The notes under the pieces were generated by a model. The model saw nothing but the letters and a program-made list of their open reading frames with translations, did not search any database and was not told the origin of the DNA. A DNA stretch of 64,000 nt from Microbacterium schleiferi (GTDB lineage: Bacteria; Actinomycetota; Actinomycetes; Actinomycetales; Microbacteriaceae): the NCBI RefSeq assembly GCF_020781975.1, contig NZ_JAJGNI010000001.1, forward strand, positions 1 through 64,000. Reading direction: 5' to 3'. Positions 1-10,134 of the stretch are shown here, piece after piece. Both the position numbers and the translations under genes were made by a program. Every line of letters starts with the position of its first letter. Position 1 is the stretch's first letter.

Positions 1-371
1 GTCCGGTTCGGAGGGCGGCCAGCAGAAACCCACCCGGCGCAAGCCAGACAGGGCGCTGCTGGCCGACCCTACACGGAGCACTGGACGAGCGAAGGCAAGC
101 TCTACTGCTGCGCGATCAAGGACGTGTTCTCCAACCGAATCGTCGGGTACTCGATCTCAGATCGGATGACCGCGAAACTCGCCGTAGACGCCGTCCGAAA
201 TGCTGTCGCGCGCCGCGGTGAGGTCGCCGGCTGCATCCTGCACGCCGACAGGGGCAGCCAGTTCCGCAGCCGCGCGATGGCCCGCGAGTTGCGCCGCCAC
301 GACATGGTCGGATCGATGGGAAGAGTCGGCGCTGCGGGGACAACGCGGCCATGGAGATGCTCCTATCGCTG

Positions 372-1431
372 TCAAGTGGGCGTGGGCGTGCTTTCCAGGA
401 GTCGGAAGATGTGACGGGCGTAGTACCTCTTGAGGCACCGCATCGCTTCTCTCTTCGTCTTACCCTGAGCGATCCGTCGCGCGAGATAGTCGCGCGTCTC
501 AGGGTGCACCTTCACGCGCGCGAGGATCGCGGTGTGAAGCGCTCGGTTGAGCTGACGGTCACCGCCGCGTGAGAGGACGATGCCGCGTCTGGTTCTGACC
601 TGAGGTGGCTTCCAGCGGTGCGACGCCGCCGAGCCGAGCGAAAGCGGCTTCGTTACGGCATCGCCCGGCGTGAGACCAGGAGATGAGGATTTGCGCGGCG
701 ACGAGCGTGCCGATGCCCGGTTCGTTGAGCAAAGCGGGGCAGATCTCGCGGACGATCGGAAGCATCGCGAGCTCGAGTTCGCGGCATTCGGTCGTCAGCT
801 GCTTGATCCGGGTCGCCGTGCTGCGCAGGGACAGTTTGGTGGCGGCGTGCTCGGGCTCGGTCGCCGTGTCTGGACGGAGCCGGATGCACCGGTCGACGAG
901 TTGTCCGAACGTGAGCCCGCGGAGGTCCTCCCGGAGATCGACGGGTGCGGTGACGATGAGCGCCTTGAGCACGTTGATCGCGGCGACCCGGGCGAGCTTC
1001 GCGGAATCCCGGGCCACGATGAGCGTTCGCAAACCCTCGCGAAGTCCTCGAGATCGTGGCGTTGCCCAGGTTTTGCGGCCGAGTGTCTCGCGTGCCGCGC
1101 GCACCGCGTCGAGCGAGTCAGACTTCGCTCCGTCCTTCGATGCGCGGGTGCTCGGGTGGTCGAACTCGATCACGAACTCGCCCTTCTCTGCCAAGGTCGC
1201 GGCGAGGCCGGCGCCGTAGCTGCCGGTCGACTCGATCGCCCAGGCGCGGCGCTCGTCGACGGTAAGGGTCTTCGCCCATCGGAGCGCCTGGCCGTACCCT
1301 CGTCGCGTCGCAGGGAATGTCGCTGCTGCCAGTTCTCCTTGCGTGGTGACGCTCACGACGGCGGCGGTGACGCGATCACGGTCAGGGTCGACGCCGATCA
1401 CGTGGTCTACCAGTTCTGCGAGATCAGTCAT
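372..1431 (-). pseudogene. IS110-family transposase, one-base frameshift
   Basis: This is a DEDD/RuvC-like plus transposase_20 recombinase. The N-terminal part has the DEDD start (VDHVIGVDPDRDRVTAAVV) and the C-terminal part the family motif NEPGIGTLVAAQIL followed by FARLGGVAPLEATSGQ. The open frame stops early at 559 after QTRHRPLTRR. In the next frame the expected continuation is intact (RGGDRQLNRALHTAIL ... KRYYARHIFRLLE) down to a stop at 372. The span of 1060 nt is 3n+1, so one extra base near 583-590 inactivates the gene or is a sequencing error. Confidence -1.
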
Positions 1432-1650
1432 GCCCGTTTCCTCCTTCTTCTTCGATGGAAACCACCGACGGAAGGGATCGAGGCAGGACTGTGATGAGTC
1501 ACCCGAAGGGACATGCTCCTAATCAAGCCATCTGAAGTCGGCGGTGCGGCTGGCGGACATATCTCCAAATGAGGACACCGGAGGGTCGGTCATTCTGCGG
1601 GTCACGTCAGCCGACACCACCTTGCCGCGCAGCATGATCCGAGTGTCACA
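1432..1650 (-). ncRNA. Candidate IS110 non-coding end (possible bridge RNA region)
   Basis: About 220 bp without a supported gene lie between the IS110 transposase start and the resumed IS3 frame. In IS110-group elements the non-coding end upstream of the recombinase encodes a structured bridge (seek) RNA that pairs with target and donor DNA. Position and length fit this. I have not demonstrated a fold or guide loops, so the RNA itself is an inference from family knowledge. Confidence -1.
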
Positions 1651-1914
1651 GTCGTTCTGGTCACTGCTGCAAACGAACGTCCTCAACCAGCAGCGGTGGG
1701 CGACCCGGCAGGAGCTGCGACTCGCCATCGTCGTTTGGATCGAGCGGAAGTATCACCGCCAGCGCGCCCAGGACACCCTCGGCGGCTTGACGCCCATCGA
1801 GTTCGAAGCCAAGCTAGCCGAGCCGCTCACACTCGCGGCCTAAACCGAACCTGTCACCAGTTCGTTCCTCACGCCCGTGGCTCGGAATCGTCGGTAGCCG
1901 CGGCTCTCGTAAAC

Positions 1915-2435: not shown

Positions 2436-3344
2436 ATGTTGACATGGGAACCCGTACTCGCCCACTTCGCCGCATACCAACATGCCGCGGGCCTCGCAGA
2501 GCGCACCATCCACGGCCGTGAAGCCGTGCTGCGGATGCTCGCCGAACACACAGGGCTGCAACCGAGGCAGATCGAACCCGTCGACCTGCTCATGTTCCTC
2601 GGCAGACCCCACGCCCGCACCGGCAAGCCCCTCTCACCCGGGACGAAACAAGTCGAACGGTCCTACCTGCAGACCTGGGGGAAATGGATGGTCGCGGAGG
2701 GCTACCTCGCCCACGACCCCACAGCCCGCCTCCCCAAAGTAAAAGTTCCCCGCCGTCGGGCGCGACCCCTCAAGCTCGAACACATCGAACTCATGCTCGA
2801 CTCCGGCGCATACCGCCGCACCCGCGACATCATCACCATCGCAGCCCTCACCGGGCTCCGCGTCGGCGAGGTCGTGAAGATCCGCGGCGAAGACGTCGAC
2901 TGGGTGACAAACAGCATCCGATCCACCCGCAAGGGCGGCCTCGAGCATGTCGTGTGGATGCCAGAAGACGTACAAACGATCGCGCGGCGGATGCCGAAGG
3001 CCGGGTGGTGGTTCCCGTCCCCATACAAGAACCACCAGTTCCCTGACGGCGGCGGTCACATCCTCATGAAGTCCGCATCCTCACGGATCTCCCGCGTGCT
3101 CCGACGAGCCGGCATCACAGACCCGAACATCACCGGGCACAGCCTCCGACACTTCTACGCCACCGTCCTCCTCCGCGGCGGCGCACGCGTCCGCGTCGTC
3201 CAAGAAATGCTCGGCCACGCTTCCCTCGCCACCACACAGCTCTACATCGAAGTCACCGACGACGAGATGGCCGAAGCAACCGAAGTGCTCCCGAGGATCA
3301 GCCCGCGCGAGCGTTCCGGGCGTGCGTCTAGACTAGCCGCATAG
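2436..3344 (+). CDS. int: Tyrosine-type phage integrase
   Basis: 302 aa, normal for a XerC/D-sized phage integrase. A SAM-like core-binding domain (about 1-95) precedes the catalytic domain with Arg142 (TGLRVGEV), His235 and Arg238 (GHSLRHFY), His261 (LGHASLATTQLY) and nucleophile Tyr270. It would recombine attP with the anticodon loop of tRNA-Lys(TTT). ATG at 2436 has AGGAGG five bases upstream. The C terminus RASRLAA ends in the three residues that ClpXP recognises in ssrA tags. Integrases of integration-dependent immunity phages are also short-lived, so the tail may limit Int levels. Position next to attL and downstream of the repressor in attP supports the role. Confidence -1.
   Translation: MLTWEPVLAHFAAYQHAAGLAERTIHGREAVLRMLAEHTGLQPRQIEPVDLLMFLGRPHARTGKPLSPGTKQVERSYLQTWGKWMVAEGYLAHDPTARLPKVKVPRRRARPLKLEHIELMLDSGAYRRTRDIITIAALTGLRVGEVVKIRGEDVDWVTNSIRSTRKGGLEHVVWMPEDVQTIARRMPKAGWWFPSPYKNHQFPDGGGHILMKSASSRISRVLRRAGITDPNITGHSLRHFYATVLLRGGARVRVVQEMLGHASLATTQLYIEVTDDEMAEATEVLPRISPRERSGRASRLAA
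3329..3334 (+). promoter_or_regulatory. Possible -10 box for the phage tRNA
   Basis: TAGACT lies inside the last integrase codons, about 19 bp before the mature tRNA 5' end. No convincing -35 is seen. It would let the tRNA be made in the lysogen when int is off, but the call is tentative. Confidence -1.
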
Positions 3345-3352
3345 TTCCGACC

Positions 3353-3424
3353 GCCCCCGTAGCTCAGAGGCAGAGCAACCGGCTTTTAACCGGTGGGTCG
3401 AGATATCGTAATTCTCCGGGGGCA
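3353..3424 (+). tRNA. Phage-borne tRNA-Lys(TTT), likely replacement for the split host gene
   Basis: A cloverleaf can be drawn. The acceptor is GCCCCCG/CGGGGGC with 7 of 7 pairs, the D stem GCTC/GAGC with a 7-nt loop containing GG, and the anticodon stem ACCGG/CCGGT is perfect around CTTTTAA (anticodon TTT). The discriminator is A and CCA is not encoded. The T arm is odd: stem GAGAT/TTCTC has a mismatched closing pair and the loop ATCGTAA deviates from the usual TTCRANY. It has the same anticodon as the tRNA broken by the prophage. It lacks the GGATTA core, so its own integrase should not attack it. Confidence -1.
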
Positions 3425-3472
3425 CACCGCGGCGTAGACGCGCACACTGGCTCCCCGGTACGATCCGGTGGC

Positions 3473-3866: not shown

Positions 3867-5642
3867 TTACTGCTTTTCGGTCTTGGGGACGTTCGCGAGC
3901 GCGAGACCACCGAGGAGCGGCAGCAGGTATCCGAGACCCGCCTTCGCCCCGGCCAGTGCGACCTCGATGGGTGGGAGGCCAGCCGCGGCGGCGGTTGTGA
4001 CCGCTTCGACGACTTCGCTGGTCGTCCACACCGCGGCACCGCCGAGCACGATCGACGCGTACAGGATCACCCGCGCGCGGGCGGACTGGATGATCGCCCC
4101 GATTGCTGCGGCCACGTTCGCCGGGTTCACGTTCGCTGGGAGTTCCGGCGGCGTGTACGTCGGCCGTTCCGGCTCGGGTTCGGGCTGTTCGGGCATGGGT
4201 TCCTCCTCCGGTGTCTCCGGGTCAGGTCCGGGCTGGGTGGGTTCCGGGTCGGCCGGATCAGGCACTGGCTGCTCGATGTGCCCGTTGATCCGGTTCGCTT
4301 CGGTCACGATCCGCTCGAGGTCGAGAGTGCCGGGGCATTCGGTCGCTACCCAATGGTTGTGGGGGTACACGTTCACGCCGACCTTGAGCTCGCCGAGCTG
4401 GTGGCGGGCCGCGATGTCGGCGACGAGGCGCGCGGACAGGTCGTAGACGGCATCCGTGATGGGCCGGTCGGGTCCGCCTTCGTGCTCGATCGAGATCCCG
4501 TTCGCGTTGGAGTAGGCGTCGCCGTCGCCGTGGGCGTACTCGGCCTCGGGGACGTACTGGTGGATCTCGGTCTGCCCGATGCCGTACTGGGTGGATGTTC
4601 CGGTGCCGCGGCCGTCCTTGATGGTGCCGGGGTTTTGGAAGTGCGCGTCGGTCCCGGCGAGGGTGCCGTCCATCCAGTGCAGCGTGATGTGCGTCTTCAC
4701 CGCAGCCGGTTCCCGGTATCCGTAGTTCGGGGAACCGACCCACGTAGCAAGCGGCGAATCCGGGGCGCGGTTCTTCCACGGCTGCGCAGGGTCGAGCTGC
4801 GGGGTTGCCGGCGGCGCGGTCGGTGTCGACGGCACCGTGGGGAACGCGCGGCCGTCCGTGATCGGCCCCCACTTCGCATCCTTCTCGAGGCTCTCCGCGA
4901 CCTGGAACCGGTACGTCCCGCACGAGCACTGATTACCCCAGTCGTCATCCGCGGCCCAGTTGTGGAACAAGCCCCGACCCTGAAGGTACTGCTGGATCTC
5001 CCGCGTCGACCGGGATACCTGCTTCTCGCCAGCGATGATGACCCGCGCCACCCGGGACGTATCCGGCCCGAAGATGGAATCCGCGACCAGACCCACCCAC
5101 TCCTGGAACGTCTTCGTGCCGCCTCGAGTCTTCGGGCCGGGGTCGCCGTCGATCTCCCCGTCGTACAGGCCGAGCGACTTGAGGAACCGCTGCGCGTCCG
5201 TGACCGGCATCGCACCGTCCGGCACGGATGCGGTGGTGGCTCCGGTGTGTTCGAGGTGCCACGGCTCGTTGTAGTGGTCGTACCCGGCGGGGTCGAAGTT
5301 GAACCGGTGCGCGTTGTCGCGGATCCACTTCGACCTGGGGTTCCCGTACCGGGTGACCCCGGCGTCGGCCCCGCTGTCGCGGATGTCGATCGCGCGAGGC
5401 CCGACCGGGTTCGTCTCGACGTGGAAAGCTTTCGGGTCGTCGGGGTGCGCGGCACGGACGTTCGTGGTCTTCGCCACAGCGAACGCGTGCCAGAGGTCGT
5501 ACTGTTCCTGCCACGTCCGCACACCCGACGAGATGATCAGGTCGAGGCCGAAGACGCGACGGAACTCCGCCTCGAGACGGGAGTAGTCTCCCGCGACGTT
5601 CGCAGCGACCCGCTGCCCGTCGACGATCACGTAGGTGGTCAC
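3867..5642 (-). CDS. Multidomain endolysin: M15 peptidase + amidase + C-terminal membrane segments
   Basis: 591 aa from the GTG at 5642, chosen because AGGAGGG lies 8 bases upstream. Residues 1-135 look like an M15 D,D-/L,D-carboxypeptidase (SGVRT at 39-43, HVETNP...AIDIRD at 74-89, EPWHLEH at 126-132). Residues 145-265 hold two repeats resembling peptidoglycan-binding modules (FLKSLGLYDGEIDGDPGPKT, IQQYLQGRGLF). Residues 310-455 look like an amidase_2 N-acetylmuramoyl-L-alanine amidase (THITLHW, ISIEHEGG, ATECPG). A Pro/Glu-rich linker (460-500) leads to two hydrophobic segments (about 524-540 and 566-584). It would cleave the peptide stem and the amide bond at lysis. Membrane segments at the end of a lysin are unusual. 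Confidence -1.
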   Translation of the reverse strand: MTTYVIVDGQRVAANVAGDYSRLEAEFRRVFGLDLIISSGVRTWQEQYDLWHAFAVAKTTNVRAAHPDDPKAFHVETNPVGPRAIDIRDSGADAGVTRYGNPRSKWIRDNAHRFNFDPAGYDHYNEPWHLEHTGATTASVPDGAMPVTDAQRFLKSLGLYDGEIDGDPGPKTRGGTKTFQEWVGLVADSIFGPDTSRVARVIIAGEKQVSRSTREIQQYLQGRGLFHNWAADDDWGNQCSCGTYRFQVAESLEKDAKWGPITDGRAFPTVPSTPTAPPATPQLDPAQPWKNRAPDSPLATWVGSPNYGYREPAAVKTHITLHWMDGTLAGTDAHFQNPGTIKDGRGTGTSTQYGIGQTEIHQYVPEAEYAHGDGDAYSNANGISIEHEGGPDRPITDAVYDLSARLVADIAARHQLGELKVGVNVYPHNHWVATECPGTLDLERIVTEANRINGHIEQPVPDPADPEPTQPGPDPETPEEEPMPEQPEPEPERPTYTPPELPANVNPANVAAAIGAIIQSARARVILYASIVLGGAAVWTTSEVVEAVTTAAAAGLPPIEVALAGAKAGLGYLLPLLGGLALANVPKTEKQ

Positions 5643-5666
5643 TGTGCTGTCCCTCCTGGGAACGAC

Positions 5667-5691
5667 GAAGGCCCCCACGAGGGGGGCCTTC
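5667..5691 (-). terminator. Strong hairpin just upstream of the lysin ribosome-binding site
   Basis: GAAGGCCCCC / GGGGGCCTTC is a perfect 10-bp stem around a 5-nt loop, ending 25 nt before the lysin start. No T run follows. It may attenuate read-through into the lysin or delay its translation until late in infection. Confidence -1.
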
Positions 5692-5753: not shown

Positions 5754-5993
5754 TTACGCTTGCGACCGCCACGCCTGAATCGTCGGGGCAGACAGGGCGG
5801 TCAACGCGGCGAGTTCACGGACGGACGCACCATGCGCGGTCGCGGCGAGGACCGCGGCACGGTACTCATCCCGAGCGGTAGACGCCGCATCCTGCGCAGC
5901 GGCATCGGCGGCACGCGCAGCAAGGATGCGTTCACGATCCGCATCAGACACCCACCCGCGAGGCTGAACCACACCACCGAGAGTATCGGTCAC
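5754..5993 (-). CDS. Small helix-turn-helix-like phage protein
   Basis: 79 aa. After an Ala-rich, probably coiled N-terminal helix (RILAARAADAAAQDA) the C-terminal half resembles a helix-turn-helix (GASVRELAALTALSAPTIQAW). Its start overlaps the end of the upstream gene by four bases (ATGA at 5990-5993), so the two are translated together. Likely a small DNA-binding protein; the target is unknown. Confidence -1.
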   Translation of the reverse strand: MTDTLGGVVQPRGWVSDADRERILAARAADAAAQDAASTARDEYRAAVLAATAHGASVRELAALTALSAPTIQAWRSQA

Positions 5994-6418
5994 TGCTCGA
6001 TCGCCTTCATCCAGTTGTCCCGCGACCGCAGGTAGAGCGTCTGCCCGGTATCGGTGACCATGTACGGCATCATCACCTCATCGAGCGTCGCAAGCTGCGC
6101 GTCGATCAGCGCGGACTGCGCCTCAAGCCAGTCCTTCGCGATCCGCCACGCCACCCGAGCCGCCTGCTCCGGTGTGCACTTCGAGCGAGCCACCTGCTTG
6201 TCGGCCCGCATCGCGGCGAGCACACCGTCGGTGCGCACGGGCAGCTCGAAGTCGCGGAAGCCGTAGTCGGTCTTCATCGTGAACGCGAGGCCCGCGGGCA
6301 CGCCATCGTCATCGAACATGGTAGAGATCCTGGTGACGCCGCGGCGAGCGAGCGCACTCTGGATCTCCCCCATCGTCTTGGAGACTTCGATCGACGTCGT
6401 GTAGTTCAGGATCGGCAT
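5990..6418 (-). CDS. Conserved phage protein of unknown function
   Basis: 142 aa (starts MPILNYTTSIEVSKTMGEIQ). The pattern 'alpha/beta N-terminus, FTMKTDYGFRDFELPVR, helical middle with WRIAKDWLEAQ' recurs in phage and plasmid hypotheticals, but I know of no assigned function. It forms a two-gene operon with the small HTH-like protein and lies outside the structural gene block. Confidence -1.
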   Translation of the reverse strand: MPILNYTTSIEVSKTMGEIQSALARRGVTRISTMFDDDGVPAGLAFTMKTDYGFRDFELPVRTDGVLAAMRADKQVARSKCTPEQAARVAWRIAKDWLEAQSALIDAQLATLDEVMMPYMVTDTGQTLYLRSRDNWMKAIEQ

Positions 6419-6540
6419 AACTCAAACGTACTACCTTCCTGCACACCCCGTACAGGCGGCATGCACAGTTGGAGTGTTATGCGCAGCTATTCGAGTTGCA
6501 AGTTCGCTGCCTGAAACACGGCTGGGATACACTGCCGACC

Positions 6541-6696
6541 ATGACTGACCGGGAGCCTCCCATCCATCACATAGGGAAGCGCTACTCGGCATGGCAGAAT
6601 CGCGCAGATCGGTTCACCGTTGGTGACATTGTCCTGATCTCCTCGCCGCTGGTCATCTTGCTAACCGGCCCCGCATGGCTCCCGTGGATCTTCTGA
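6541..6696 (+). CDS. Small membrane-associated protein upstream of the Wzy-like gene
   Basis: 51 aa (MTDREPPIHHIGKRYSAWQN...), with one hydrophobic C-terminal segment (GDIVLISSPLVILLTGPAWL). Its 3' end overlaps the next gene by 22 bp, suggesting translational coupling. A TACACT -10-like box lies about 8-13 bp upstream of the ATG, so the transcript may be nearly leaderless. No function can be assigned. Confidence -1.
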   Translation: MTDREPPIHHIGKRYSAWQNRADRFTVGDIVLISSPLVILLTGPAWLPWIF

Positions 6697-7949
6697 CAGC
6701 AACACCGCGTCGGTTCGAGCAACAACCGTGGTTCCGGAGGATATTCGGCTTGAGTGGTGCCGCGTCCCTTCCAGTCGCGTTCGGTATCCCTTTATCCGCG
6801 CTTATCTCAGCAGCGCTGCTACCAGTTCGCCGGATAGGTCCACGCCCACCGTGGTTCATGGTTATCACGACCATGAGCCTCCTCACAGCGGTTGTCGTCG
6901 CAGCGTCAGCTTTCATACATTCGACGCCACTGGCAACTGCTACAGCTGGACACTCGCTCGTGTTCCTGCTCACGGTTGTCTCGTACAGGATCATCACGAC
7001 GACTGTCGGCGAGGCCTCGCAGATTGGTGTGTGGCTGTTCACAGGGCTGGCCGTGTTCGCGATCTTTTTCGGTCCCGAGTCCGATGGTGCTCGTGGTTTC
7101 GAAGGCCTATGGAAGTTCGGCCTCGGTTACCCGCTGACGTTCATCGCTGTTTACCTGGTTACCTTGAAAACGACGCGCGTCGCGCCGGTTTTCCTGACGC
7201 TGCTCGGACTGGGAGCGTTCGGTACGGTAGTCGGTGCGCGCGCTTACGGTTTGGTCTGTTTCGCGAGCGGCGCAGTGATCCTCGCTCGCGGCCTAGCTGG
7301 TCGACGTCGAGCTGGACTCCAGACGGTCTTCGTCGTCATCGGACTAGGTGTCCTCGCATGGGGTCTCCCACATCTACTTGAGTCTGGATTCTTCGGAGCA
7401 GATGTCGCAGCGAAGACAAGCCAGCAGGTGGAAGCCCGGTCGTCGGCCCTGCTTGGAGGACGGACAGAACCCCCGCTATCGCTAGCCGCGATCAGCGTCA
7501 GCCCTTGGATCGGCTGGGGCAGCGTTCAAGCGATCGACTCCGCGACGATCAGTCTGGGCTCGAAGATCGCGTCAACCCTTGGACTCGAAGACCCATCGAC
7601 TTACATGCCACTCTGGGTGCGGAGCAACGGCGAGATCTCGCTCCACTCCATCCTCTTCACGACATGGGTCGAGGGAGGCGTAGTGGCCGCGCTCTTTCCG
7701 ATCCTTCTGTGCGCACTGCTGATCGTAGGCGGACTGCGCGCGACTGGGCGCTATGCTCCGCTTGTCACCGTTGTTGCGTTCCAAGCTGCCTGGACGATCG
7801 TCTTCTCCCCCTGGACGGGAGGGCGAGGTGTACAACTTGCCCTAGCCGCGATCCTCGCGATGCTTGCGCTTGCTGAAGCGAGAAGCGCCACGCAGGGAGA
7901 GTTTCCCACGAGTCGCTCCTCGCCCGTCAGGAGACGGGTGAGACGGTGA
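6675..7949 (+). CDS. Polytopic membrane protein, O-antigen ligase/polymerase (Wzy/WaaL)-like
   Basis: 424 aa with about ten hydrophobic segments spread over the protein. Near residues 315-345 it has the pattern typical of the Wzy_C domain (ISLHSILFTTWVEGGVVAAL, comparable to the 'HN..L....E.G..G' signature) after a long external loop. Such proteins join or polymerise surface polysaccharide units on the outer face of the membrane. It is transcribed against the surrounding late genes and its 3' end overlaps the tail-spike gene end by 23 bp. This marks it as a moron. Remodelling the polysaccharide that the tail spike binds, and so excluding related phages, is the likeliest role. Confidence -1.
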   Translation: MAPVDLLTATPRRFEQQPWFRRIFGLSGAASLPVAFGIPLSALISAALLPVRRIGPRPPWFMVITTMSLLTAVVVAASAFIHSTPLATATAGHSLVFLLTVVSYRIITTTVGEASQIGVWLFTGLAVFAIFFGPESDGARGFEGLWKFGLGYPLTFIAVYLVTLKTTRVAPVFLTLLGLGAFGTVVGARAYGLVCFASGAVILARGLAGRRRAGLQTVFVVIGLGVLAWGLPHLLESGFFGADVAAKTSQQVEARSSALLGGRTEPPLSLAAISVSPWIGWGSVQAIDSATISLGSKIASTLGLEDPSTYMPLWVRSNGEISLHSILFTTWVEGGVVAALFPILLCALLIVGGLRATGRYAPLVTVVAFQAAWTIVFSPWTGGRGVQLALAAILAMLALAEARSATQGEFPTSRSSPVRRRVRR

Positions 7950-10134
7950 CGGACGAGTAGTTGAGCACTTTGGTATCTGCCACCGCTGCGACGTTCTGCG
8001 CGAACTGGAGGTAGACCGTGCCGCTCGTCGAGCCGACGTCGAGGATCGCCATCACCTTGATCAGCGTGATCGGGTTGTTGCCGGTTCCCAGCGCGGCGGT
8101 AGATGCGAGCGCGAGGCTGATCGGTCTGGCCGATCCGCTACCACCGGTCTGCGCCGTGTCGAGCCCAGCGACGATCCCCCACCGACCCTGCATCGGGGTC
8201 GGGTAGGACAGGCCGAGCTTGATGTCCTCTGTCGTTGCCGACTGCACGTGCAGCGTCCACTCCACAAGGAGCTTCTGATTCGCGGCCACCGCAACGCCGA
8301 GATCGGTGATGTTGGTCAGGACATCACTGTTGTTGATCGTCTGCGCTGCGGACTTCCAGCGCGTCACCGGACCCGACGACACACCAGCGATCAGCGACGG
8401 TGTGGACGTGTTCGGCGGGGTCAACTCGACACGCAGGTTACCCGTCGTCGCGGGCAGACGGTACGTCCCGAGACCGGGGATCTTGATGACCTTGACGCCT
8501 TCGAGGCTCACGTCGCCCACGATGCCGTCTTCGATGTAGAGCGCCCAGCCTCCCTCGCCTTCGCCCAAGTCGCGCCGACCGAGGATGATGTCGTGGAATC
8601 GTGACGATCCGGTCAGGCCGTACGAGCCCGAGGCGTTGTCGAGGTACAGGTCTGCGTACTCGGTGACGCCAGGAACCGATGCGGTGCCGTTGTCCATCGA
8701 GATCCAGTCGCCGCCGACCGCGTTCACGGTGCCCGAGAGCCGGATACCATTCATGCCGTTGCGCGAAGCACGGAGCCCGTTGACGATGTTGCGGGACTGA
8801 TTGCGGACACAGATACCCTCGCCGCCGTTGTCCCACGCCTGAATCGAGTGCGAGACAGATTCGGAGTGATCCCAGAAGACACCACCGTTGTCGCAGTCCC
8901 AGACCTTGACGTCGTTGTAGGTGACGTACCGGTTGCGCAGGTCGCAGCGCACGGCCCATTCGCCTGCGCAGTTCTCGGCATAGACGCGAGTCAGGCTCAC
9001 GCCGTAGGTGTAGCCATCCGACACGCCGTAGTTCGCGAATGCGCCACCTCCGACGTTCTTCACAAAGATGTCGACGTCGGCGTAGGACGCGAATCGGAGG
9101 TAGACGCCGAACGTGTTCGACGCCGGGGTGATGTTGTCCCGGTTGCCGTCGAGCGTGTGGATGTAGATCGTCAGGTTCGGGCACTCGGGCGCGGTCGCCG
9201 AGTCGACGTTCGCGCCGAACGTGTGCGTGCGCGAGTTGCCAGACGCGAACCACGTCGTGCTCGTCACACCGTCGCGGACCTTAATGGTTCCGAACATGCG
9301 GAACACCTGATTGCCGAGCCCACGCGGGCTGAGAGCGTCGCCAGCGGACGTGTAGATGGTCGAGTCGATGAGGTACGTGCGGCCACCGGGGCAGTCGACG
9401 TGCCCGTAGTTGTCAAGGCCCCACTGGATCGCATGACGGTCGATCTCCTCCGTTAGCGCGGTCGCGCGGGGGAAGACGGCCTGAGCCGCCGCGAGCGTAC
9501 CGAAACGCTCGCTCAGCGGGTGAGTCGTACCGTCTGCGATCGCGGCACGCAGGCCGAGCGCATGATCCCCCGTCAGAGGGTTGTACGCGACCTTCGCCTG
9601 CGGAACATAAGCAGCACCTAGTTCAGGTGACGCGGCGAGCGCAGTACGCCCCGCCTCGGTGTTCGGGACAGCGCCAACATCGGCTGCAGACAGGACCACG
9701 ACACCCGTCGACCCGTTCACCGACGTGATTGTCGGCAACGCGACAGATCCCACCGGGCCGACCGTGCCGTTGATCGGCAACGTGTCGAGATCGACCGTTT
9801 CCACATCGGAGGTGACCTGGACACGCTTCGTGTACTTCTTCGAGTCCCGGCCGATACGAGTCGTACCGACGATCGTGTACCACCAGTCGGTGATCGCGTC
9901 CCCCGCCTCGTTCACGAACCCTTCCTGGTCCGTGTGCGGGAGCTCGAACGAACCGATCGTGCCAGCATCCGCTTCCGTCGATACTTCGAACGCGGTGATC
10001 CGGTCGCCTGTAGCCGACCAGATCAGGGTGTGTGACGGGGTGATCTTCAAAGACACCGCCGCGCTCTCACCGAGCACATCGAAATCCTTACCGAACGTGA
10101 ACGTCGCGGTCGTAACACCAGCAGGCAGCGCCAT
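7927..10134 (-). CDS. Tail spike / minor tail protein with right-handed beta-helix
   Basis: 735 aa. The N-terminal about 150 residues form a virion-anchoring head (starts MALPAGVTTATFTFG). A Gly-rich segment follows (NGSTGVVVLSAADVGAVPNT), a common phage-fibre linker. Residues about 230-570 show the short repeats of Asn/Gly/Val that characterise pectate-lyase-like beta helices (NGLRASRNGMNGIRLSGTVN). The C-terminal 150 residues form a separate beta domain. It probably binds or depolymerises a surface polysaccharide of the host. A hairpin-like start motif (10141-10150) precedes the ATG. Confidence -1.
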   Translation of the reverse strand: MALPAGVTTATFTFGKDFDVLGESAAVSLKITPSHTLIWSATGDRITAFEVSTEADAGTIGSFELPHTDQEGFVNEAGDAITDWWYTIVGTTRIGRDSKKYTKRVQVTSDVETVDLDTLPINGTVGPVGSVALPTITSVNGSTGVVVLSAADVGAVPNTEAGRTALAASPELGAAYVPQAKVAYNPLTGDHALGLRAAIADGTTHPLSERFGTLAAAQAVFPRATALTEEIDRHAIQWGLDNYGHVDCPGGRTYLIDSTIYTSAGDALSPRGLGNQVFRMFGTIKVRDGVTSTTWFASGNSRTHTFGANVDSATAPECPNLTIYIHTLDGNRDNITPASNTFGVYLRFASYADVDIFVKNVGGGAFANYGVSDGYTYGVSLTRVYAENCAGEWAVRCDLRNRYVTYNDVKVWDCDNGGVFWDHSESVSHSIQAWDNGGEGICVRNQSRNIVNGLRASRNGMNGIRLSGTVNAVGGDWISMDNGTASVPGVTEYADLYLDNASGSYGLTGSSRFHDIILGRRDLGEGEGGWALYIEDGIVGDVSLEGVKVIKIPGLGTYRLPATTGNLRVELTPPNTSTPSLIAGVSSGPVTRWKSAAQTINNSDVLTNITDLGVAVAANQKLLVEWTLHVQSATTEDIKLGLSYPTPMQGRWGIVAGLDTAQTGGSGSARPISLALASTAALGTGNNPITLIKVMAILDVGSTSGTVYLQFAQNVAAVADTKVLNYSSVTVSPVS

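Follow-up and report, generated by a model that had tools for sequence, protein, structure and literature searches.

Serotype conversion by phage-encoded polysaccharide polymerases is documented in Gram-negative bacteria, and the locus described here raises the question of whether a prophage of Microbacterium schleiferi carries a polymerase of this kind, and why such a gene would lie beside its tail spike. The window, that is the whole stretch of 64,000 nucleotides that was analysed, is the start of a 440-kb contig (NZ_JAJGNI010000001.1) in a genome of 3.02 Mb. A preliminary description of this DNA had recognized a two-gene unit on the opposite strand, directly beside a beta-helix tail spike, and had read it as a moron that includes a polytopic Wzy/WaaL-like protein.

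The prophage and the genes around its tail spike

The prophage occupies approximately 2.4-39.8 kb of the window, with its structural genes on the − strand. Its late operon runs from a tape-measure-like ORF through the minor tail proteins to the spike, after which come the candidate polymerase ORF (+), two small − strand ORFs and the endolysin; beyond the latter lie a lipoprotein-like ORF, a tRNA-Lys and an integrase-like ORF. The features of this region are the following:

2436..3344, + strand: integrase-like ORF, tyrosine-recombinase-like by eye, matching ORFs in two related loci at 25-29% (blastp)
3353..3425, + strand: tRNA-Lys(ttt), between the endolysin and the integrase-like ORF
3867..5678, − strand: endolysin (PG_binding_1, Amidase_2)
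5990..6418, − strand: 142-aa ORF, phrog_17260-like, flanking the moron on the side away from the spike
6528..6533, + strand: TACACT, possible −10 element, chosen by eye only, 7 nt before the ATG at 6541
6541..6696, + strand: 51-aa ORF with one hydrophobic segment, of uncertain gene status, its last 22 nt lying within the polymerase ORF
6675..7949, + strand: predicted Wzy/WaaL-type membrane glycosyltransferase ORF, 424 aa, ~10 TM, from ORF, TM, fold, family and tree analyses
7927..10134, − strand: tail spike, 735 aa, from matches to phage tail proteins, solved tailspikes and D3 orf27

The polymerase ORF starts with an ATG, has no internal stops and encodes ten hydrophobic segments, with a loop of ~100 residues separating the seventh from the eighth; it runs on the strand opposite to the structural genes, and its 3' end converges with that of the spike ORF, which it overlaps by 23 nt. 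Regarding composition, its GC is 0.610 and its GC3 0.649, against means of 0.637 (sd 0.021) and 0.772 (sd 0.051) for the 31 other called prophage genes, each longer than 300 nt; none of these 31 lies below it in GC3 and three do so in GC, but the neighbouring ORF 5754-5993, which at 240 nt is under the length limit of the comparison, has a lower GC3 still (0.637). A consensus scan, whose reach excludes some actinobacterial promoters, returned no promoter-like site for the gene, and the TACACT at 6528..6533, if taken as a −10 element, would imply a leaderless transcript; the only terminator-like site, at 8304, compares with 1.6 expected, hence none is beyond chance.

As for the spike, its residues 1-150 match Arthrobacter phage tail proteins at 35-41% (among the matches listed), while residues 197-255 and 197-261 match the solved tailspikes 4ru5 (E 1.9e-11) and 4ru4 (E 1.1e-9), the latter of which we take to be the tailspike of LKA1. 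The LKA1 tailspike, gp49, is described as an O-antigen lyase (PMC5701251, partial text). In addition, residues 198-252 are 59% identical to D3 orf27 over 56 columns (E 6e-14); the stretch at window 9370-9550 (aa ~197-255) is a module common to phages of different bacterial phyla. Pfam Beta_helix remains sub-threshold on the spike (16.6 vs 25.9 bits), and a model built without an alignment was unusable (pLDDT 36.7).

The 51-aa ORF upstream of the polymerase may not be a real gene. Its coding score of +3.6 is the best of the three frames (the others being −29 and −19); unannotated ORFs of at least 51 codons that end at most 40 nt from a gene start accompany 13 of 92 genes, and searches gave neither a family match above chance level nor a phage match. 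It was also considered as the N-terminus of the polymerase, lost by a frameshift: among nine loci compared, the relative L110 has a hydrophobic N-terminal stretch in frame, and small +1-frame ORFs lie upstream of the relatives in G385 and L108, against which 5 and 232 of 1000 shuffles, respectively, score as well as the 51-aa ORF. Against this reading, the alignment with close relatives begins near residue 15 of the window polymerase and does not involve the 51-aa part. A further candidate role was suggested by Iap, a 31-aa peptide said to mimic a TM helix of Wzz (PMC12004945, partial text). Compared with D3 Iap, 763 of 1000 shuffles are as good, peptides this small comparing poorly; the top scorers against the 51-aa ORF among 307 called proteins are Wzz/kinase proteins, with an E of ~0.2 by rough estimate, that is chance, and 6/300 and 5/300 shuffles are as good as the comparisons with the host C28 and C22 proteins. 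The match gives no backing to a Wzz-TM mimic: it falls in the kinase part, in what was taken for the Walker B motif, and in no TM helix.

At this level the preliminary description holds in part. The polytopic ORF lies where it was placed, on the opposite strand and directly beside the spike, and its moron character is backed by the unusual composition (except for the 240-nt ORF), by its orientation against the operon and by its patchy presence, no such gene having been recognized in eight of ten related prophages. Two points stand in part: the unit has one well-defined gene, the second being doubtful on account of the background rate and of the missing family and phage matches, and the spike matches solved tailspikes, with Pfam Beta_helix under its cut-off.

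Three further features of the surroundings should be mentioned. The 5990-6418 ORF has Microbacterium phages as 19 of its 20 matching phage records; it lies here between spike and endolysin, while in several Microbacterium prophages and phages, as far as they were read, its homologues are among early-type genes, and for this reason (as seen among the matches listed) it failed as a marker of related prophages. The integrase-like ORF adjoining tRNA-Lys(ttt) recalls Arthrobacter phages such as Popper, where a tRNA-Arg lies beside the integrase. Finally, exact 12- or 14-mers at the two window stretches tried revealed no attL/attR repeat, and the left boundary of the prophage may be concealed by transposase-like ORFs (by eye) at window 1-1850.

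Family, predicted fold and conserved residues of the membrane protein

In a scan of its own genome, the membrane protein matched Pfam Wzy_C (PF04932) with 18.2 bits (E 0.0028) over model positions 14-147 of 149, short of the curated cut-off of 31.7 bits; no Pfam (hmmscan), PHROG or NCBIfam family was returned at E <= 1, and 3 of the 15 members of its own family match Wzy_C at E <= 1. The similarity to Wzy_C expected by the preliminary description is thus partial, since it spans nearly the full model but stays under the cut-off and goes unlisted by hmmscan.

The AlphaFold2 model, built from six sequences, has a pLDDT of 73.7 and a pTM of 0.76, with residues 1-35 below 50. Foldseek ranks WaaL first (probability 1.00, E 7.6e-3), followed by FtsW and RodA, without matches at E <= 0.001. 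With VIA-align the best chain is again WaaL (7tpg; Z 12.8 over 312 residues, 12% identity), then FtsW (10.1 and 9.7) and RodA (8.4), the best unrelated chain reaching 6.0; in helical bundles a Z under ~13 can reflect mere arrangement, and the WaaL/SEDS fold is accepted because all seven chains with Z of at least 8 belong to one enzyme class. Sequences of solved structures, searched with the family alignment A1, gave chance matches only.

Four codons are relevant to the function of the protein:

7239..7241, + strand: Arg189, identical in 15/15 family rows
7461..7463, + strand: Arg263 (GGRxE motif), 14/15 family rows
7644..7646, + strand: His324 (HS....W...G motif), 14/15 rows; candidate acceptor-activating residue by analogy with WaaL
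7794..7796, + strand: Thr374, where the family has Asp (W-D..FSP motif; alignments A1 and A3)

The sole exception for Arg263 and His324 is the distant Elesar row. In WaaL, Arg191 and Arg265 bind the lipid diphosphate and His313 is thought to activate the acceptor (PMC10920833, partial text); the family residues R189/R263/H324 follow in the same order, the equivalence being drawn from order and spacing, without residue-level superposition. The two Arg are 74 residues apart in both the window polymerase and WaaL, which is no proof because the other rows vary between 72 and 82, with 94 in Elesar. At position 374, all 13 other A1 rows that have a residue there carry Asp, and the window protein Thr; in A3 the other five rows, one of which repeats a gene already in A1, have Asp in four cases and Asn in one. 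Thr374 possibly reflects an altered specificity, a weak enzyme or a decoy, and if Asp374 is catalytic, one of the last two may apply.

Overall, the predicted model displays the traits of GT-C1 (GT-CB) lipid-diphosphate glycosyltransferases, namely the WaaL/SEDS fold and a long outer loop in the C-terminal half, and R189, R263 and H324 supply the one or two conserved Arg plus a His, Asp or Glu of this class. The Wzy/WaaL reading first proposed for this protein is accordingly strengthened by its predicted fold, by its invariant residues and by the setting of its chromosomal relatives.

Chromosomal relatives and the polysaccharide pathway of the host

Searched alone against genome contigs, the window polymerase found no match, and alignment A2 then gave five. 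Within the genus, a match at E <= 1e-3 is present in 15 of 366 genomes, and among mixed relatives one at E <= 0.01 in 5 of 98, both figures including the genome of the window itself; the named relatives, with 36-39% identity, are from Pseudarthrobacter polychromogenes, Arthrobacter sp. NtRootA1, A. humicola, Cellulomonas avistercoris and M. ginsengisoli. Viral contigs, searched with the window polymerase, alignment A2 and the spike, returned no match.

Sixteen contexts of 16-20 kb around relatives (L020-L035) were judged by eye, the home-made gene caller having missed the relative itself in three. Wzz-like, flippase-like, sugar-nucleotide or glycosyltransferase genes were recognized in most of them, in the company expected for the Wzx/Wzy pathway; often the relative is the lone polymerase candidate, beside one flippase-like protein, and one context (L021) holds a second 10-TM protein. 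The NtRootA1, M. ginsengisoli and Cellulomonas contexts, three of the five named, resemble polysaccharide loci likewise, with the other two ambiguous, and the chromosomal relatives look as if they sit mostly in such loci.

The tree was built on 19 family rows; L057 (Elesar) was excluded for its poor alignment in A1, and L109 because it duplicates the gene of L010, the G145 row. The nearest relative of the window polymerase is the protein of G222 (support 99/99, 41% identity), and in the G222 locus some neighbours begin with the same residues as genes of the C22 locus of the host. The three phage-borne rows (window, Faja and G389) need three label changes, forced by well-supported branches, with the caveat that three changes may equal one gain and two losses and that the G389 and Faja branches are long.

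As for the host, its capsule-type C22 locus encodes Wzz (44.9 bits), two Bac_transf proteins, a GDP-mannose dehydratase and a UDP-sugar dehydrogenase, together with a polymerase of 493 aa assigned to TIGR04370 (42.0 bits vs a cut-off of 40), which hhalign finds unrelated to the phage polymerase family; the flippase candidate, C22:95229-96317, has no Pfam match. On account of the Wzz, Bac_transf, sugar-nucleotide and TIGR04370 Wzy genes, the host seems to make undecaprenyl-linked repeat units and to own a polymerase different from that of the phage, whose family has no second member found in the host genome. On C28 (L128 8477-11263), two Wzy_C proteins lie side by side, near transporter- and glycosyltransferase-like genes.

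Recurrence in other actinobacterial phages

Thirteen temperate Arthrobacter phages with an integrase in view were compared: Faja, TripleJ, Kukla, EvePickles, Elesar, Popper, Zaheer, Ryan, Cole, QuinnAvery, Nandita, Gusanita and Maja. In all 13, a glycan- or ester-active gene, named or scored as such, lies among the genes convergent with the last tail gene; the sample is non-random, with twelve phages coming from the best 30 of 87 tail-protein records and Maja from its Wzy similarity, and it leaves out other large phages among the matches and the Hestia/Bauer-type phages. Elesar gp31 scores 40.3 bits with Wzy_C, above the cut-off, and Maja gp27 is 83% identical to it; Faja has gp35 (Wzy_C, 27.0 bits, below the cut-off) plus an Acyl_transf_3 protein, Kukla has Acyl_transf_3 and GDSL proteins, and TripleJ a GDSL protein. 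In EvePickles, the genes are a glycosyltransferase and an acetyltransferase by annotation, the former (gp31) with no Pfam match at E <= 0.1. Popper, Zaheer, Ryan, Cole, QuinnAvery, Nandita and Gusanita have an esterase or lipase by annotation, and the gene lengths suggest near copies; these esterases would presumably act on surface glycans. Five related phages whose displayed stretch lacks an integrase (BruhMoment, MellowYellow, OscarSo, Crewmate and Isperia) have no gene so annotated at this place. In Elesar (L057 9467-9607), the last ~47 codons of the Wzy_C gene are antisense to the 3' end of the tail hydrolase gene, and 35 other phage records match the last 52 residues only of the Wzy_C protein.

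Closer to the window, the comparison covered ten Microbacterium prophages whose tail protein shares 50-63% identity (seven more distant genomes, L089-L095, were left out), and two of them have a glycan-type gene beyond the tail genes, Pfam and hhalign having been applied to two TM-rich proteins only. G389 (L087 8922-10250, − strand) encodes a 10-TM protein of 442 aa that hhalign places in the family of the window polymerase (99.3%, E 1.7e-20), and G233 an Acyl_transf_3 protein (70.2 bits); both genes are on the tail strand, unlike that of the window. The G389 polymerase is a distant family member located after the tail fibre, it has no Pfam match, and phage records searched with it gave none. 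In the other eight prophages, one of which (L079) was seen over 6.3 kb only, no such gene was recognized by length and TM count. A Wzy-type gene thus occupies the equivalent place in one of ten related Microbacterium prophages and in the Arthrobacter phages Faja, Elesar and Maja.

With the chances slightly against it, these arrangements suggest a broader rule, by which temperate actinophages repeatedly set a capsule polymerase, acyltransferase or esterase gene tail-to-tail with the gene of a receptor-attacking tail enzyme; such a key-and-lock-changer cassette would be the functional counterpart, separately evolved in Gram-positive hosts, of the D3 module, and the gene beside the spike would therefore tell which polymer the spike attacks.

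Proposed role and alternative explanations

The best explanation, to which we assign a rough probability of 0.6, is that the prophage ORF encodes a glycan polymerase of the WaaL/Wzy/SEDS class (GT-C fold) and serves lysogenic conversion, by which the surface polymer of the host is changed and the lysogen masked. Placed in the cell membrane of the lysogen, the polymerase would take undecaprenyl-diphosphate-linked repeat units from the capsule-type locus of the host and would join them by a linkage other than that made by the TIGR04370-type host polymerase, with a change of the surface polymer as the outcome. The adjoining spike probably binds or depolymerizes that polymer, so the lysogen would be masked from the phage's own kind. 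The ORF, its predicted fold, the family residues, the placement, the unusual composition, the genes of a host pathway and the recurrence are observed; the polymerase activity, its substrate, the change of linkage, the expression from the prophage and the block of adsorption are inferred.

Several observations weigh against this explanation. One is the Thr in place of the family's Asp374; others are the sub-threshold Wzy_C score and the structural comparison, with no Foldseek match at E 0.001, a VIA Z under ~13 and a model made from six sequences. The gene has no promoter-like match and no terminator beyond chance, its product has no hhalign relation to D3 Wzy-beta, the host flippase candidate is without a Pfam match, and eight of ten related Microbacterium prophages have no such gene recognized. 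In Kapi1, four candidates selected in part by location, one of them a gene between the tail spike and the integrase, were overexpressed with a negative outcome (PMC8787464, partial text).

The protein might instead be a WaaL-like ligase and no polymerase; its task would then be to transfer the completed chain from undecaprenyl diphosphate onto an acceptor in the envelope. This is unlikely, albeit the least so among the alternatives: many chromosomal loci have a relative as the sole polymerase candidate beside flippase-like and Wzz-like genes, and lipid A-core, the acceptor of WaaL, is absent from Gram-positive cells and so unavailable to the window polymerase. A ligase would agree with WaaL as the best structural match and with a His as the candidate catalytic residue, given that the inverting polymerases of the clan mostly have Asp or Glu (PMC10920833, partial text); D3 Wzy-beta, however, needs a His and yet is a polymerase (PMC4815439, partial text).

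Position 374 leads to a second, rather improbable alternative, by which a weak or dead protein, deprived of Asp374, acts as a decoy: by taking up the site of the polymerase, or its Wzz partner, it would make the host polymer shorter. Thr indeed stands where 13 of 13 other A1 rows have Asp, and D3 too carries an inhibitor of the host polymerase; nevertheless, Arg189, Arg263 and His324 are intact, the Faja and G389 phage copies retain Asp, and the Asn found at this position in A3 belongs to an intact Cellulomonas gene.

Equally improbable is that the surface change serves the lysogen in other respects (predation, drying, other phages) with no special link to the spike, the place being a tolerated insertion site. 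The distal end of late operons does tolerate insertions, and the variable moron by the tailspike gene of P22-like phages holds genes unrelated to surface glycans (PMC2629481, partial text), but 13 of 13 temperate Arthrobacter phages, in a non-random sample and with putative ester targets, have a glycan- or ester-active gene there. Finally, passenger DNA without a function in the phage, in line with the unusual composition and the patchy presence, is very improbable, as the ORF and the family motifs are intact and family members are tail-distal in three phages that do not form one clade on the tree.

With a recurrent version of polymerase-based conversion in Microbacterium and Arthrobacter phages, altering the surface glycans would become a strategy more widely used by temperate phages; it would also offer a gene-based clue to actinophage receptors and account for some of the diversity of actinobacterial surface polysaccharides.

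Comparison with known systems

D3 adds Wzy-beta, a polymerase with essential Arg and His, to a P. aeruginosa host that has Wzy-alpha, and its lysogens switch to beta-linked O antigen and are resistant to superinfecting phages of other kinds (PMC4815439, partial text). In D3 the spike is followed by iap and wzy-beta, both on the opposite strand and separated by an acetylase, and then by an HNH gene, endolysin, attP and integrase; the succession of spike, opposite-strand wzy, endolysin and integrase is also that of the window prophage, the two spikes have the 56-column stretch (59% identical) in common, and each host owns a different polymerase. The window system differs in several respects: the host is an actinobacterium without LPS, the gap contains no O-acetylase (there is no other ORF >217 aa between 6419 and 7926), the 51-aa ORF is unlike Iap by the shuffle comparison given above, and the polymerase has no sequence relation to Wzy-beta (hhalign). 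Conversion by D3 is a phenotype, whereas the window system is known here from genes alone.

WaaL (7TPG; CAZy GT121; GT-C1 clan) resembles the window polymerase in the predicted fold and in the two Arg and the His in like order; it differs in that identity over the structural alignment is 12% and that the window protein is under the Wzy_C cut-off. Faja gp35, Elesar gp31 and Maja gp27 are likewise Wzy-type membrane proteins encoded opposite to and convergent with the last tail enzyme, before the integrase, but this enzyme is annotated as an esterase or hydrolase and is no beta-helix spike; in Faja the two genes are separated by an acyltransferase and a small ORF, and the Wzy_C group of Elesar and Maja is a more distant one.

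The survey of Microbacterium phages (PMC7302621), by a term search, mentions glycosyltransferase genes once, in a lytic cluster, and does not mention O-antigen, acyltransferase, prophage, superinfection or receptor. By title or start of abstract, and among the matches listed, no report of a Wzy-type gene in an actinobacterial phage was found, subscription literature being mostly outside this search. The seroconversion genes of P22, Sf6 and Sf101 are also temperate-phage genes that change the surface, but they act by glucosylation or O-acetylation, involve no polymerase and operate in Gram-negative hosts; in the S. flexneri phages related to Kapi1, seroconversion genes are located near int-att-xis (PMC8787464, partial text). 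In conclusion, the window locus is credible as a lysogenic-conversion polymerase of a known kind, recurrent among phages and, as far as searched, new in its host phylum and enzyme family.
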